From positions 992,001 to 1,056,000 of the forward strand of contig NZ_CP053833.1 in assembly GCF_013201935.1 (NCBI RefSeq): 64,000 bases of DNA. Direction: 5' to 3'. Source of the stretch: Arcobacter cloacae (GTDB taxonomy: Bacteria; Campylobacterota; Campylobacteria; Campylobacterales; Arcobacteraceae). This document shows, in pieces, positions 44,687 through 61,790 of the stretch. The position numbers and the translations under genes are program-made. Below the pieces are notes generated by a model, which made no database searches, was not told where the DNA came from, and saw only the letters and a program-made list of their open reading frames with translations. The first letter of the stretch is position 1; every line of letters begins with the position of its first letter.

Positions 44687-45817
44687 TTGCAATTTACAAT
44701 AACAGAGAAAATAAAAAACCTAGAAATAGATGACATAAAAGAGAATCTTTTTCATTACTCATACGACAATAAAAGTTTAAAAGCCTTAGTTAAAAATAAC
44801 ACATCAACAGAAGATATTTCATATATTTCAGCTTATAGTAGCTTCAAAGGTGAAATTTATGAAAATATAATATATGAGTTATTACTAGAGTATGCACTAA
44901 GCCAAGATGAGATTACAAAGTTTGTATTAAAAGGACCATATCAAGATAAAGAGAATCTTTTTATAAAAAGTGGACTTTTAATAGATAGTAGTTCACAAAT
45001 AGTATATAAATCAGCATATAAAGATATTAGCGAATTTGATGCTTTGTTTTTTACAAAAGATAGTGTGTATTTTGTGGAGATGAGCACTTCTAAAAAAACA
45101 GCTAGTTTAAATAAAAGATTAGTAAAAAAATGCGCCTTATTGAAGATGATTTTTCCAACACTAAATATAAAAGCTCTGATAGTTGTAACAGCAGGTTCTG
45201 TAGGTCTTAGAAATTTTCCAGAGTATGCAACTATTTGGACTACAAAAGATTTAGAAGATGAAGAGTTAATAGAGAAAATAATCTTTGCAAAAAAAGTAAA
45301 AAATGACATCCAAACTCTAAAAGCTCCAGAAAATAAAAAATATATTGAAGCTTGTAAAATAAAATATAAAAAATTCCAGTATTTCCCAACTTTAGAGTGG
45401 ATTTTAAATACCTCAAGACAAAATCCAAAATTTGCAGTTGATTTGAAATTTTTCTCATCTGCTAAACTTGGATTGTTTTTTGATATTTATACAAAGTTAT
45501 ATATAGGGTATATAAATACAGAAGAGTTTTTAGAGTTATATAGTGAGTTTAATCTAAAAGTTAAAACAAATAGAATCATAGTAACCATTGAAAAAGTAAA
45601 TCAAACAGAGTTAGATATAGTTTATTATGCAAAAGAGACAAATGGAAAACTAAAAAGAGTGAGACTTGAAGAGGATAATATATCTATAAAAGATAAAGAA
45701 TTAGATGGATTTACAAATGCTGAGGTAAGATTTTTTATGAAAGTTTTAGAAGAAAAACACCATTTAAGCGTAGAAAATATAAGACATATACAAAAAAACA
45801 TCTCACTAATCAAATAA
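44687..45817 (+). CDS. Hypothetical protein with a PD-(D/E)XK nuclease-like core
   Basis: A 376-residue soluble protein. The segment around residues 118-140 (EFDALFFTKDSVYFVEMSTSKKT) keeps the spacing of a PD-(D/E)XK core: Asp, hydrophobic strand, Glu, with a lysine shifted to the following helix. An upstream helix starts with SSFKGEIYENIIYELL, a usual first helix of such nucleases. The remainder is helical and basic. The start is TTG with AAGAAGAAG just upstream. It diverges from the restriction-modification gene with a 126-base gap. A role in DNA defence is an inference from context and fold. Confidence 0.7.
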   Translation: MQFTITEKIKNLEIDDIKENLFHYSYDNKSLKALVKNNTSTEDISYISAYSSFKGEIYENIIYELLLEYALSQDEITKFVLKGPYQDKENLFIKSGLLIDSSSQIVYKSAYKDISEFDALFFTKDSVYFVEMSTSKKTASLNKRLVKKCALLKMIFPTLNIKALIVVTAGSVGLRNFPEYATIWTTKDLEDEELIEKIIFAKKVKNDIQTLKAPENKKYIEACKIKYKKFQYFPTLEWILNTSRQNPKFAVDLKFFSSAKLGLFFDIYTKLYIGYINTEEFLELYSEFNLKVKTNRIIVTIEKVNQTELDIVYYAKETNGKLKRVRLEEDNISIKDKELDGFTNAEVRFFMKVLEEKHHLSVENIRHIQKNISLIK

Positions 45818-56826: not shown

Positions 56827-57157
56827 TATTTAGTTTTATTAAAAACTCTTTTGCTTCGTAATATTTTTCTTTTTCTTCAAAATCAACTTCTTCTAAAAGA
56901 GGAATGTATTTTTCAAAAGCAAGCCAAACTTTTTTGTGTCCTTCTTCTTTTTTTTTAATATGAAAAAGAGCAAGTGCAGTTGCACCGTTTATTAAACCCT
57001 TTAAAACAAGGGCTTTGTTTATTTCACCCTGTTTTTTATAATAGTTCCAATCATCTTCAAGTAGTTCATGAGCTTCTACAAAATAACCATTTTTTATTGC
57101 AAAAATAAATCTATCAATAGCTGTTTTTTGATTGAAAATATTATAATCTATTTTCAT
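56816..57157 (-). CDS. DUF309 family protein
   Basis: A 113-residue helical protein with the DUF309 signature: YFVEAHELLEDDWNYYK, where the HExxE-like acidic helix is conserved, and LKGLINGATALALFHI in the second half. Function of the family is unknown. It overlaps the end of uvrA by four bases (ATGA), thus probably co-transcribed with it. Confidence 0.8.
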   Translation of the reverse strand: MKIDYNIFNQKTAIDRFIFAIKNGYFVEAHELLEDDWNYYKKQGEINKALVLKGLINGATALALFHIKKKEEGHKKVWLAFEKYIPLLEEVDFEEKEKYYEAKEFLIKLNKMI

Positions 57158-59970
57158 TTTCCATTTATCTCTTTATCTAGGTAATATCCAGTATATGAAC
57201 CAGAATTTTTATGATTTTGTGCTAAAAACTCAGGTGTTCCTTCATCAACTATTTTTCCACCTTTACTTCCACCTTCAGGTCCAATATCAATAACCCAATC
57301 AGAGTTTTTAATAACATCAAGATTATGCTCAATTACAAGTACAGAGTTACCAAGTTCTACTAAGTGATGTAATACTTTTGTTAATCTATCAACATCAGCA
57401 AAGTGTAAACCAGTTGTTGGCTCATCTAAAACATATAGAGTATTTCCAGTATCTTTTTTACTTAACTCTTTACTTAGTTTTATTCTTTGAGCTTCTCCAC
57501 CACTTAAAGTAACTGCATTTTGTCCTAAAGTTATATATCCAAGTCCTACATCACTTAGAGTTTGAAGTTTAGCATTTAGTTTTGGAACTTTTGAAAAAAA
57601 TTCTAAAGCTTCATCTACACTCATATTTAAAACATCAGAGATATTTTTACCTTTGTACATTATCTCTAAAGTTTGAGAATTATATCTATGCCCTTGACAA
57701 GCATCACATTTCACCATAATATCAGGTAAGAAGTGCATTTCAATTTTGATTTCACCTTCTCCTTGACACTTCTCACAACGTCCTCCTTTTACGTTAAAAG
57801 AGAAACGTCCAATTTTATAACCTCTAAGCATTGCTTCTTTTGTTTTTGCAAACAAATCTCTAATATCATCCATAAGTCCAGTATAAGTTGCAGGATTACT
57901 TCGGGGAGTCCTTCCTATTGGACTTTGGTCAAGATAGATTACTTTATCAAGTTTTTCTAATCCTTCAATCTCTACACCATCTACTTTTTTTACTTTTCTT
58001 GCATGATTTAAAAGCTCTTTTGCAACTGGAAGTAGGGTTTGTAAAATAAGTGAAGATTTACCACTTCCACTAACTCCCGTTATTGAAACAAGATTTTTTA
58101 GTGGAATTTGTACATCTAAATCTTTTATGTTATTTATATTTACATTTTTTATCTCTATAAACTCTTCTTGAGGTCTGTTGTGAACATAATCAATCTTTTT
58201 TGCACCAGTTACATATTTTGCTGTTAGAGTTTTTGCTTTATTCATCTCTTTTAAAGTTCCAGCAAATACAATTTCTCCACCAAATTTACCTGCATTTGGT
58301 CCAATATCAACTATATAATCAGCTGCTTGAATCGTCTCTTTATCATGCTCAACTACAATAACAGTATTTCCTTTTTCTTGTAGAGCTCGTAAAGTTTTGA
58401 TAAGTTTATTTGTATCTCTTTCATGAAGTCCAATAGATGGCTCATCTAAAACATACATAACTCCTGTTAGTCCTGAACCAATTTGTGAAGCTACTCTAAT
58501 TCTTTGAGCTTCTCCTCCACTTATAGTTCTAGCATCTCTTCCTAAAGTTATATATCCAAGTCCAACATCATGTAAAAAGAATATTCTCTCTTTAATCTCT
58601 TTTAGTATAGGTGCAGCAATCATCTTATTTTGCTCACTTAAATACTCAAAATTTTTATCATCTTGGAAAAATGCATGGGCATCTTCTATTGGAATATTTA
58701 AAATATCAGGAATATTTCTATTTGCTACAAAAACACTTTGAGAAGAGGGTTTTAATCTATTTCCATTACAAGCGTCACACTTCTTTTCAGTCATGTATTC
58801 ACTCATCTCTTTTTCTTCTTTTATCATGTCATAGGCAAGTTTTACTATTCCTTCCCATTTTCTAACTAATTTATGTTTTTTCCAAAAAAATGTAACTTCA
58901 TCTACTGTTCCATGTAAAATGGCTTTTTTTTCGTGTTCTTCTAAAGAATTAAAAGGAATTTTTATGTTTATATTATTTTGTTCACAAAATGCTAAAAGCA
59001 TTTTGAAATAAAAGCCTTTATTAAATCCATAAATAATTTTAATAGCTCCATCTTCAATAGATAAATCTTCATTTATAACTTTTTTCATATCTAAAGCATA
59101 TCTAATTCCCAAACCATCACAAGAAGGACAAGCACCTTTTGGTGAGTTAAAAGAAAAAGAGATAGGTTCAAGTGGTTCAAAAGAGATTTTACAATCAAAA
59201 CAAGCCATATGTTCTGAGTAATGAATATGCTTTTCTACTCCAACTTCTTCATGATTTATAATCTCTATTTCTAACTCTCCAAAACTCTCTTTTAGACCTT
59301 TTTCCACATCTTGAGCAATTCTTTCTTTATTCTCTTCTTTTACTGTAACTCTGTCTATTACTACTTTAATAGTATGCATTTTGTTTTTTTCAAGTTCGAT
59401 ATCTTCATCAAGTCTTGCCATAACTCCATCTATCATGGCTCTTACATAACCTTTATTTCTAAGACTTTCTAATAAATCAGCAAAACTTCCTTTTTTTCTG
59501 TTTATTAATGGTGCTAAAATTACTATTTTTGATTCATTGGGTAAAGATAAAACTTGATTGATAACATCACTTGCACTCATTTGAGAAATAGGTTGTCCAC
59601 ATTGGTGACAATGTTGTTTTCCAACTCTTGCATATAAAAGTCTAAAATAATCATAAACTTCAGTGATAGTTCCAACAGTTGAACGAGGATTTTTTGAAGT
59701 GGTTTTTTGATCTATTGCAATAGCAGGAGTTAATCCTTCTATTCTTTCAACATTTGGTTTTCCAATCTTATCTAAAAACTGTCTAGCATAAGAAGATAAA
59801 GACTCTATATATCTTCTTTGCCCTTCAGCGTAAAGTGTGTCAAATGCTAATGTAGATTTTCCAGAACCACTTAATCCTGTAAATACAATTAGCTTATTTT
59901 TTGGTATTTCTAAATTAATATTTTTTAAGTTATTTTCACAAGCGTTAAATATTTTTATAGTATCTGTCAT
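57154..59970 (-). CDS. uvrA: UvrABC system subunit A
   Basis: UvrA recognises damaged DNA and loads UvrB in nucleotide excision repair. The 938 residues include two ABC ATPase halves, each split by zinc fingers: Walker A GLSGSGKSTLAFDTLYAEG near residue 32, the CxxC pairs CHQCG and CFDCK, the ABC signature GGEAQRIRVAS, the second Walker A GVSGSGKSSL, the zinc finger CEKCQGEG with CDACQG, and the second signature GGEAQRIKL. Length is typical (940). No LexA-like box was found upstream, consistent with the phylum lacking a classic SOS system. Confidence 0.97.
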   Translation of the reverse strand: MTDTIKIFNACENNLKNINLEIPKNKLIVFTGLSGSGKSTLAFDTLYAEGQRRYIESLSSYARQFLDKIGKPNVERIEGLTPAIAIDQKTTSKNPRSTVGTITEVYDYFRLLYARVGKQHCHQCGQPISQMSASDVINQVLSLPNESKIVILAPLINRKKGSFADLLESLRNKGYVRAMIDGVMARLDEDIELEKNKMHTIKVVIDRVTVKEENKERIAQDVEKGLKESFGELEIEIINHEEVGVEKHIHYSEHMACFDCKISFEPLEPISFSFNSPKGACPSCDGLGIRYALDMKKVINEDLSIEDGAIKIIYGFNKGFYFKMLLAFCEQNNINIKIPFNSLEEHEKKAILHGTVDEVTFFWKKHKLVRKWEGIVKLAYDMIKEEKEMSEYMTEKKCDACNGNRLKPSSQSVFVANRNIPDILNIPIEDAHAFFQDDKNFEYLSEQNKMIAAPILKEIKERIFFLHDVGLGYITLGRDARTISGGEAQRIRVASQIGSGLTGVMYVLDEPSIGLHERDTNKLIKTLRALQEKGNTVIVVEHDKETIQAADYIVDIGPNAGKFGGEIVFAGTLKEMNKAKTLTAKYVTGAKKIDYVHNRPQEEFIEIKNVNINNIKDLDVQIPLKNLVSITGVSGSGKSSLILQTLLPVAKELLNHARKVKKVDGVEIEGLEKLDKVIYLDQSPIGRTPRSNPATYTGLMDDIRDLFAKTKEAMLRGYKIGRFSFNVKGGRCEKCQGEGEIKIEMHFLPDIMVKCDACQGHRYNSQTLEIMYKGKNISDVLNMSVDEALEFFSKVPKLNAKLQTLSDVGLGYITLGQNAVTLSGGEAQRIKLSKELSKKDTGNTLYVLDEPTTGLHFADVDRLTKVLHHLVELGNSVLVIEHNLDVIKNSDWVIDIGPEGGSKGGKIVDEGTPEFLAQNHKNSGSYTGYYLDKEINGK

Positions 59971-60053
59971 AGTTTTGCCTTTAAAATTTTAAAGCTTGCA
60001 TTATAGGATAGATATATATAATAGTCTATTAAAGAGGGAATATAAATTTGTCT

Positions 60054-60080
60054 AAAAAACCCTTTTTTTAAGAGTTTTTT
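60054..60080 (-). terminator. Terminator overlapping the zinc-ribbon gene stop
   Basis: An 11-bp stem (60054-60064 with 60070-60080, one mismatch that is G-U in RNA) around a T-rich loop. The descending arm on the minus strand is GGGTTTTTT. The stretch 59971-60053 has no other clear feature besides AT-rich promoter-like sequence for uvrA. Confidence 0.55.
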
Positions 60081-60532
60081 TCTTTATATTCTTCTGTTCT
60101 TATTCGTCTTTCAATCTCTCTTTTTACTAAGTTAATTGCATAGTTTTTATTTCCACCATGAATGGTTGAAACTATTTGAGAATTACAAGTTTCACATATA
60201 AAATCAGTTTTTGTAAGTTCGTTTGCTTTTGTGTGGCAAGAACGGTCATCATAAACAAGTAAACTATCACAAGTAGGACAATAACATTGTATATTTGTAA
60301 TACTATTTTTTTCCCAATTCCATTTCCATTTAGCTTTGTAAATAGAATCTTCTTTATAGGCTAAATAGTCTAGTTTAGAAGTTTTTTTTAGGTTTATAAA
60401 AATTTTTATAAAAAGAATTAGTAATAAAATAAAAATTATTATTAAAGACCAAACAGGAAGGCTGTAATAAGATAATAAAAAATCATATATAGGATTTAAC
60501 GCAAGTTTTATTTGTAAAATGGAGTTTTCTAT
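60068..60532 (-). CDS. Membrane-anchored zinc-ribbon protein with apparent ATA start
   Basis: A 154-codon frame with clear protein character but no ATG, GTG or TTG anywhere in it. A stop (TAA) lies nine bases before the proposed ATA codon at 60530-60532, and AAAAAGG sits eight bases before that ATA. The product has one membrane helix (about 27-48), a basic and Trp-rich stretch (AKWKWNWEK), then two CxxC pairs, CPTCDS near 85-90 and CETCNS at 113-118, with extra cysteines (83 and 99), followed by a helical tail. It is either translated from a rare start or its start codon has mutated. The terminator hairpin and intact 154 codons favour recent activity. Confidence 0.7.
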   Translation of the reverse strand: MENSILQIKLALNPIYDFLLSYYSLPVWSLIIIFILLLILFIKIFINLKKTSKLDYLAYKEDSIYKAKWKWNWEKNSITNIQCYCPTCDSLLVYDDRSCHTKANELTKTDFICETCNSQIVSTIHGGNKNYAINLVKREIERRIRTEEYKEKNS

Positions 60533-60649
60533 TTGTAAACCTTTTTAAATAAATTTTTGGAATTATATATTATTGATACTAAAAATAAAAATATCAATTT
60601 TTAAACTAGACAAATATTGACTATAAAAACAAATTAAGCTAAACTTTTA

Positions 60650-60665
60650 CCAAACAATCGTTTGG
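60650..60665. promoter_or_regulatory. TetR operator upstream of tetR
   Basis: CCAAACAATCGTTTGG, an inverted repeat (CCAAAC-N4-GTTTGG), lies eight bases before the regulator ATG. Fifteen of its bases recur exactly at 61251-61265. Confidence 0.8.
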
Positions 60666-60672
60666 ATAAAAT

Positions 60673-61227
60673 ATGGCAATCAAAAAAACATCAAAAGAAG
60701 AGATTTTAAAAGAGTCTATCAAACTTTTTAAAATACAAGGATATTCAAATACTTCAATGGCAAATATAGCAGATGCTTGTGGTTTGATAAAAGGAAGTAT
60801 TTATCATCATTTTAAAAGTAAAGATGAAATAGGAATGGAATCTTTAAGATATATTCATAGCTACTTTGATAAAGAAGTTTTTTCTATTGCATATAGGACT
60901 AATTTATCGGATAAAGAAAAAATCAAACTTATAGTAAAAAAAACAGATGAATATTTTTTACAAAGTAAAGGTGGTTGTTTACTTGGAAATTTAGCTTTAG
61001 AAGTAGGCACTTTAAATTTAGAGTTTAAAGAAGAAATAAAGATATATTTTACCGCATGGGAAAATGCTTTTGCAAATATATTTCAAAACAAATATCCCAA
61101 AGCAAAAGCTAGAGAGTTATCCAAAGAGTATGTTGCTTTGATTCAAGGTTCAATTATGATGATGAATCTATACGATTCATCTGAAGAATATTTAAAAGTT
61201 GGTGAAAAAATCATCAGTTTAATCTGA
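60673..61227 (+). CDS. TetR/AcrR-family transcriptional repressor
   Basis: The 184-residue protein has the N-terminal TetR DNA-binding domain: EILKESIKLFKIQGYSNTSM, then IADACGLIKGSIYHHFKSKDE. The C-terminal ligand domain contains the TetR_C segment GGCLLGNLALEVG, found in the AcrR/YcdC/NemR-like group that senses electrophiles or small ligands, with Cys near residue 104 a possible sensor. It likely represses itself and the three genes that follow through the two matching operators. Confidence 0.9.
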   Translation: MAIKKTSKEEILKESIKLFKIQGYSNTSMANIADACGLIKGSIYHHFKSKDEIGMESLRYIHSYFDKEVFSIAYRTNLSDKEKIKLIVKKTDEYFLQSKGGCLLGNLALEVGTLNLEFKEEIKIYFTAWENAFANIFQNKYPKAKARELSKEYVALIQGSIMMMNLYDSSEEYLKVGEKIISLI

Positions 61228-61284: not shown

Positions 61285-61790
61285 ATGAATTATCTAAAAA
61301 AATTTAAAGGGCAGGGTGAAAAACTACCTGCAAAATCAAACATAAACGAAATCATTTTTGCTTGGTTTGGTGGATTTATTTCAATTGCTATTATTGGATA
61401 TTTGACAAAGTCTTATGATAATCTTTTAGTAATGGGTTCATTTGGTGCCTCTTGTGTGTTATTATATGGTTTTCCAAAAAGTCCATTTTCACAACCAAGA
61501 AATGTAGTTTTAGGGCATATTTTTTCTACATTTATTGGATTGATTTATTTTCATTTTATTGGAAATGAATGGTGGAGTATGGCATTGGCTTTAGCAACTG
61601 CAATTGCTGTATTGCAACAAGAACAGTTCATCCACCAGCAGGTTCAAATCCTTTAATTGTTTTTTTATTGAGTGCAAATTGGGATTATCTTATTTTTCCT
61701 ACTTTAATAGGTTCTATAATTTTAGTAATAGTTGCATTGTTTTATAATAATCTACATAAAGATAGATTTTATCCTGACTATTGGTTTTAA
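61285..61790 (+). pseudogene. HPP-family membrane protein, frameshifted
   Basis: The first frame begins MNYLKKFKGQGEKLPAKSN and runs through three membrane helices to ALATAIAV (about residue 109). There it shifts: the next residues in the second frame are ATRTVHPPAGSNP, the family name motif, followed by the last helix and HKDRFYPDYWF to 61790. Joining the frames near 61612 needs one extra base (a 1-nt deletion in this sequence). Joined length is about 168, normal for HPP proteins, a poorly understood transport-like family (NirX/Mlr-type). It could be a genuine mutation or a sequencing error. Confidence 0.82.

Follow-up and report, generated by a model that had tools for sequence, protein, structure and literature searches.

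A membrane zinc-ribbon gene of Aliarcobacter with a probable, conserved AUA or AUC start codon

The locus and its product

In the 64,000-nucleotide stretch of DNA analyzed here (the window), a minus-strand frame (60068-60544) is open from TAA to TAA over 158 codons, none of which is ATG, GTG or TTG. An earlier note had singled it out as a 154-codon gene lacking a standard start codon, with AAAAAGG properly spaced before an ATA and with a transmembrane (TM) helix, CPTC and CETC pairs and a terminator as further signs of a gene. Most of this held: counted from the ATA (60532-60530) the frame has 154 codons and a stop, the spacing is 7 nt, both cysteine pairs are present, and one strong TM helix (H31-55) is predicted. 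The terminator fared worse, as a scan of 59900-60800 gave none, and only an A/T-rich inverted repeat could be seen by eye downstream of the stop. Because of the in-frame TAA at its 5' border the start is confined to the five codons that precede the conserved coding region, AAA GGT TTA CAA ATA. The features of the locus are listed in Table 1.

Table 1. Features at the zinc-ribbon locus (window coordinates)
Feature	Position	Strand	Remarks
Membrane zinc-ribbon CDS, counted from ATA	60068..60532	-	154 residues; one TM helix; CxCPxC and CxxC pairs; C-terminal helix; TAA stop
ATA, proposed start codon	60530..60532	-	ATA in 14/18, ATC in 4/18 homologous loci
Shine-Dalgarno sequence AAAAAGG	60540..60546	-	7 nt 5' of ATA
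In-frame TAA directly 5' of the frame	60545..60547	-	
TATAAT, likely -10 box	60563..60568	-	invariant alignment columns
uvrA, downstream neighbour	57154..59970	-	same strand; also close by in further members of the genus
TetR-type regulator, divergent neighbour	60673..61227	+	also close by in several further members of the genus

Thirty random windows matched in trinucleotide composition (Markov-2) together contained three ORFs of 150 codons or more, each with a start codon, and in the real window no start-less ORF other than the frame at 60068-60544 reaches 100 codons. The frame is more than a product of chance. Another late-starting ORF, at 44941-45486 on the minus strand, runs antisense to a normal gene; we set it aside. 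Elsewhere in the window (61285-61790), two ORFs in different frames (123 and 73 aa) overlap and seem to be the parts of a single integral membrane protein, beginning MNYLKKFKGQG..., that a frameshift near 61600 has divided.

The encoded protein consists of a short N-terminus, the TM helix, a domain with the CYCPTC and CETC pairs, and a C-terminal helix (mean pLDDT of the structure model 77.9). No Pfam or NCBIfam match exceeded the cut-off, PADLOC gave no match, and comparison of the model with solved folds gave no useful one (best PDB E value 1.6). Judged by its parts, the product is a zinc ribbon that is anchored in the membrane and probably cytoplasmic.

Conservation of the 5' end among homologues

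Homologues were present in 17 of 31 Aliarcobacter genomes, the other 14 being without a match, and one further close homologue was found in another Campylobacterales family (genome G386, locus L049). With identities of 48-95% within the genus, the homologues mark the frame as a real gene. One plasmid match was obtained, on A. faecis pAFAEC (L017), and none in the phages and viral contigs of the collection searched.

An alignment of homologues, proposed in the earlier note as a check for ATG at the position of the ATA, yielded a uniform picture. In 18 of 18 loci, which are related and thus stand for far fewer independent events, AAGG is followed after exactly 7 nt by ATA (14 loci) or ATC (L003, L016, L017 and L049), and ATG, GTG, TTG and ATT are absent from the start position in all 18. 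Both AAAGG and TATAAT are invariant in the 15 aligned chromosomal copies, and most copies have an in-frame stop a few codons 5' of AAGG. In the lineage of the window copy (L001-L003 and L014) about 32 codons including TM1 are missing just after the first few codons, yet these codons and the AAGG-N7-AT[A/C] arrangement have been kept. The note had also reasoned that ATG in every relative would point to a fresh null mutation; this does not apply to the 18 close homologues, and it is only in gammaproteobacterial and Desulfobacterium relatives that an ATG lies nearly at this place (see below).

Since the codons preceding it vary freely, ATA/ATC is the sole constant candidate for the start. Initiation at a neighbouring near-cognate codon, such as the ATT or TTA two codons 5' of ATA, would draw on the presence of ATT there in several copies; we consider it extremely improbable, because that codon varies (ATT, TTA, TTT, GCT) and is just 1 nt from the Shine-Dalgarno sequence, the codon directly before ATA varies as well (CAA, CAG, CCA, ACA, AGA), and ATA/ATC alone is constant. 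In principle, ATA/ATC could be an internal isoleucine codon if a still odder codon upstream initiated. Of 13 isoleucine-rich columns, that of the start alone lacks ATT, the commonest isoleucine codon in these genes, but one other column nearly matches it, and as the sequences share ancestry the missing ATT is suggestive only.

The frame is not joined to a normal start by a frameshift, an outcome that would have spoken against the earlier note: in the window copy the leader following TATAAT is free of ATG in any frame, and the upstream neighbour is the divergent TetR gene. The same region bears on the idea that ribosomes begin upstream in another frame and enter this one by frameshifting or slipping on the A-rich tract. 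The AAAAAAGG tract does resemble a slippery sequence, and L017 carries an out-of-frame ATG just upstream; this ATG, however, is not shared by the other copies, between the -10 box and the tract of the window copy there is no ATG, GTG or TTG in any frame, and the length of the A-run differs among copies whereas AAGG-N7-AT[A/C] is constant, all of which makes slippage exceedingly unlikely.

In one copy (L012 in G001, about 1975-2053) AAGG-N7-ATA is kept and the frame is shifted near a T6 run after 24 codons. This copy is either decaying or affected by a sequencing error.

Selection on the protein and inheritance of the locus

Between near-relative start-less pairs dN/dS was about 0.15-0.2 (L001-L002, 0.026/0.167; L005-L006, 0.047/0.289; L007-L009, 0.019/0.099; another such pair, 0.053/0.353), with higher ratios in more distant or faster pairs. 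The zinc-ribbon part showed the strongest constraint (0.058/0.327); the N-terminal part following the ATA was likewise, if more weakly, constrained (0.128/0.272). The protein is under purifying selection, and a fresh null mutation is thereby ruled out together with the start layout conserved in 18/18 loci. The related idea that the gene is dead, having lost its ATG recently and now decaying, would account for the frame without a standard start, for the frameshifted L012 and for the many genus members without the gene. We regard it as very improbable, given that ATG is missing throughout the 18 loci while the Shine-Dalgarno sequence and its spacing are fixed, that start-less pairs have dN/dS values far below 1, and that the zinc-binding cysteines are invariant in 15 of 15 aligned sequences.

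In most of the wider chromosomal regions that were checked, uvrA, the TetR gene and/or a DEAD-box gene have remained neighbours, so the start-less state looks old and vertically inherited.

Internal ATG was found in 6 of 2870 codons of the start-less group (L001-L017 and L049) versus 22 of 2392 in ATG-start relatives (L074-L087). Out-of-frame ATG was not depleted (149 and 82 observed, 135 and 91 expected), and on this ground gene-wide selection against ATG was rejected and the rarity of in-frame methionine ascribed to amino-acid make-up. Methionine is scarce in the ATG-start relatives too.

Annotation and the question of an internal start

The remark of the earlier note that gene callers would miss such a gene was borne out in one annotated case, the A. 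faecis plasmid copy. There the RefSeq protein starts at an internal GTG (L122:8031), 59 codons 3' of the ATC (7854), and as a result has lost most of the membrane part. With callers restricted to ATG, GTG and TTG, a membrane protein that is real and conserved goes missing or is cut short. Could the RefSeq call be right, and the gene produce a shorter, soluble zinc-ribbon protein from an internal standard start? GTG, TTG or ATG codons do occur inside some copies, but at differing places in differing copies, and constraint extends over the codons up to and including the membrane segment. In the window copy and in L003 such a start is excluded, as neither has an ATG, GTG or TTG anywhere in the frame. 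These observations leave the internal start highly unlikely.

Proposed mode of initiation

The aligned chromosomal copies share the promoter motif TTTAGT...TA(C/A)TATATAAT. Judged by sequence, its TATAAT is likely a good -10 box, which would place a leader of about 25 nt before the ATA; no stable RNA structure was detected around the start (z +1.1).

Taking the conservation and selection data together, we think it very probable that this is a functional gene whose near-cognate start codon, AUA or in some relatives AUC, is weak and aided by a fixed Shine-Dalgarno sequence. Transcription from the promoter just upstream would give an mRNA with a short, unstructured leader, on which the 30S subunit would be held by AAAGG 7 nt before AUA or AUC. 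The initiator fMet-tRNA (anticodon CAU) would then initiate there with a third-position mismatch. The yield would be low and dependent on proofreading by IF3, resulting in a small, buffered dose of the membrane zinc-ribbon protein, and we infer that selection keeps ATG out. A small, IF3-sensitive dose is to be expected from published data: AUA and AUU starts of Staphylococcus aureus gave about 10% of the AUG yield (up to 30% for ccpN) with an extended Shine-Dalgarno sequence (PMC13009471), the GTC start of Streptomyces sigR is repressed by IF3 (PMC5472188), and in vitro IF3 disfavours weak third-base pairs (PMC10158994). Shared by every related copy in the genus, the start without AUG looks like a deliberately weak signal, not a broken gene.

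Comparison with known non-AUG starts

To our knowledge, just a handful of bacterial genes with conserved AUA, AUC or AUU starts have been documented. The infC gene starts with ATT in E. coli, ATC in Streptomyces and AUA in S. aureus, and pcnB starts with ATT. In the zinc-ribbon loci the full-length protein has no standard start, a near-cognate codon and a spaced Shine-Dalgarno sequence are conserved, and the coding sequence is under selection; these findings support placing the gene in the small class with conserved non-AUG starts. None of the literature searched was found to describe a conserved AUA, AUC or AUU start in Campylobacterota.

The closest parallels are ccpN (AUA) and cvfC1 (AUU) of S. 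aureus, which also combine a conserved non-AUG start with a conserved Shine-Dalgarno sequence, cvfC1 being likewise a putative zinc-finger protein. They belong, however, to another phylum and are unrelated genes, the Aliarcobacter product being a membrane protein; their Shine-Dalgarno sequence is extended, whereas the Aliarcobacter gene has just AAAGG, and their starts were demonstrated by Ribo-Ret and reporters, whereas the Aliarcobacter start is predicted by sequence comparison. As in Streptomyces sigR, a non-canonical start has been kept genus-wide and missed by annotation. Unlike the present ATA/ATC gene, sigR has GTC or GTT, a long Shine-Dalgarno sequence (AGGAGGTG) and, as a sigma factor gene, a known regulatory logic.

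With infC and pcnB the gene shares an AUA, AUC or AUU start, which in those two is read by the initiator tRNA and is sensitive to IF3. The earlier note had added that such starts are usually autoregulated. For infC this is so because its product is IF3, whereas the Aliarcobacter product is a membrane zinc-ribbon protein, neither IF3 nor a member of any other recognized family. In addition, TTG appears to be the start codon of infC itself in each of the 30 genus genomes in which that gene was found (L090-L119). As the product is no translation factor and the infC genes of the genus use TTG, autoregulation of the zinc-ribbon gene is not indicated, nor is an infC-type feedback loop implied; the classical IF3 autoregulation through the start codon is probably absent or different in this genus.

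Relatives outside the genus and integron cassettes

The most similar proteins outside Campylobacterota were those of Pseudomonas, Stutzerimonas, Vibrio, Shewanella, Colwellia, Ectothiorhodospira, Kistimonas, Psychrobacter and a Desulfobacterium MAG. These relatives (L074-L089) are of the same protein family and have a similar start region (MSENS or alike, compared with IENS), but they use a standard start, ATG (GTG in L080). Many of them begin shortly 3' of a GTTAG boundary, in the fashion of integron cassettes, and several look like such cassettes. Measured from the cassette boundary, the start region lies equally far in L049 and in the outside relatives. In a gap-free comparison from this boundary ATG AGC GAA of the outside relatives corresponds to AGA ATC GAA in L049, ACA ATC GAA in L017 and CAA ATA GAA in the window, so that the ATG sits one codon 5' of the ATC/ATA position. 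As near homologues with ATG exist in Gammaproteobacteria, the effect of the start codon is testable on one protein.

L049 is a true integron cassette: its region (L121, G386) encodes an integron integrase (TIGR02249, 420.8 bits against a cut-off of 265) and carries four attC-like repeats, two of which flank the L049 gene. L017 on pAFAEC was seen by eye to lie behind an attC-like sequence, and thus the two deepest copies without ATG are at cassette boundaries, whereas the upstream side of the window copy holds the conserved promoter. More distant homologues in other genera of Campylobacterota mostly have ATG or TTG starts and unrelated N-termini. In a tree including these the branches were long, the group without ATG did not form one clade, and L017 and L049 stood at the base of the ATG-start group, and the tree does not tell whether ATG was lost or gained relative to ATA/ATC.

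The gene probably spread as an integron cassette. More tentatively, and with slightly less than even confidence, we propose that a mobile cassette gene already in its AUC/AUA-start form crossed between Campylobacterales families and became fixed in Aliarcobacter chromosomes with a promoter of its own, selection excluding AUG and IF3-limited initiation setting the dose. We have not seen a cassette-borne history described for the class of conserved non-AUG starts, and the present case suggests that such starts can travel with mobile cassettes.

The integron of L121 (7754-12331) is a complete one located outside Arcobacter, with attC-like repeats of about 70 nt and cassettes without known function.
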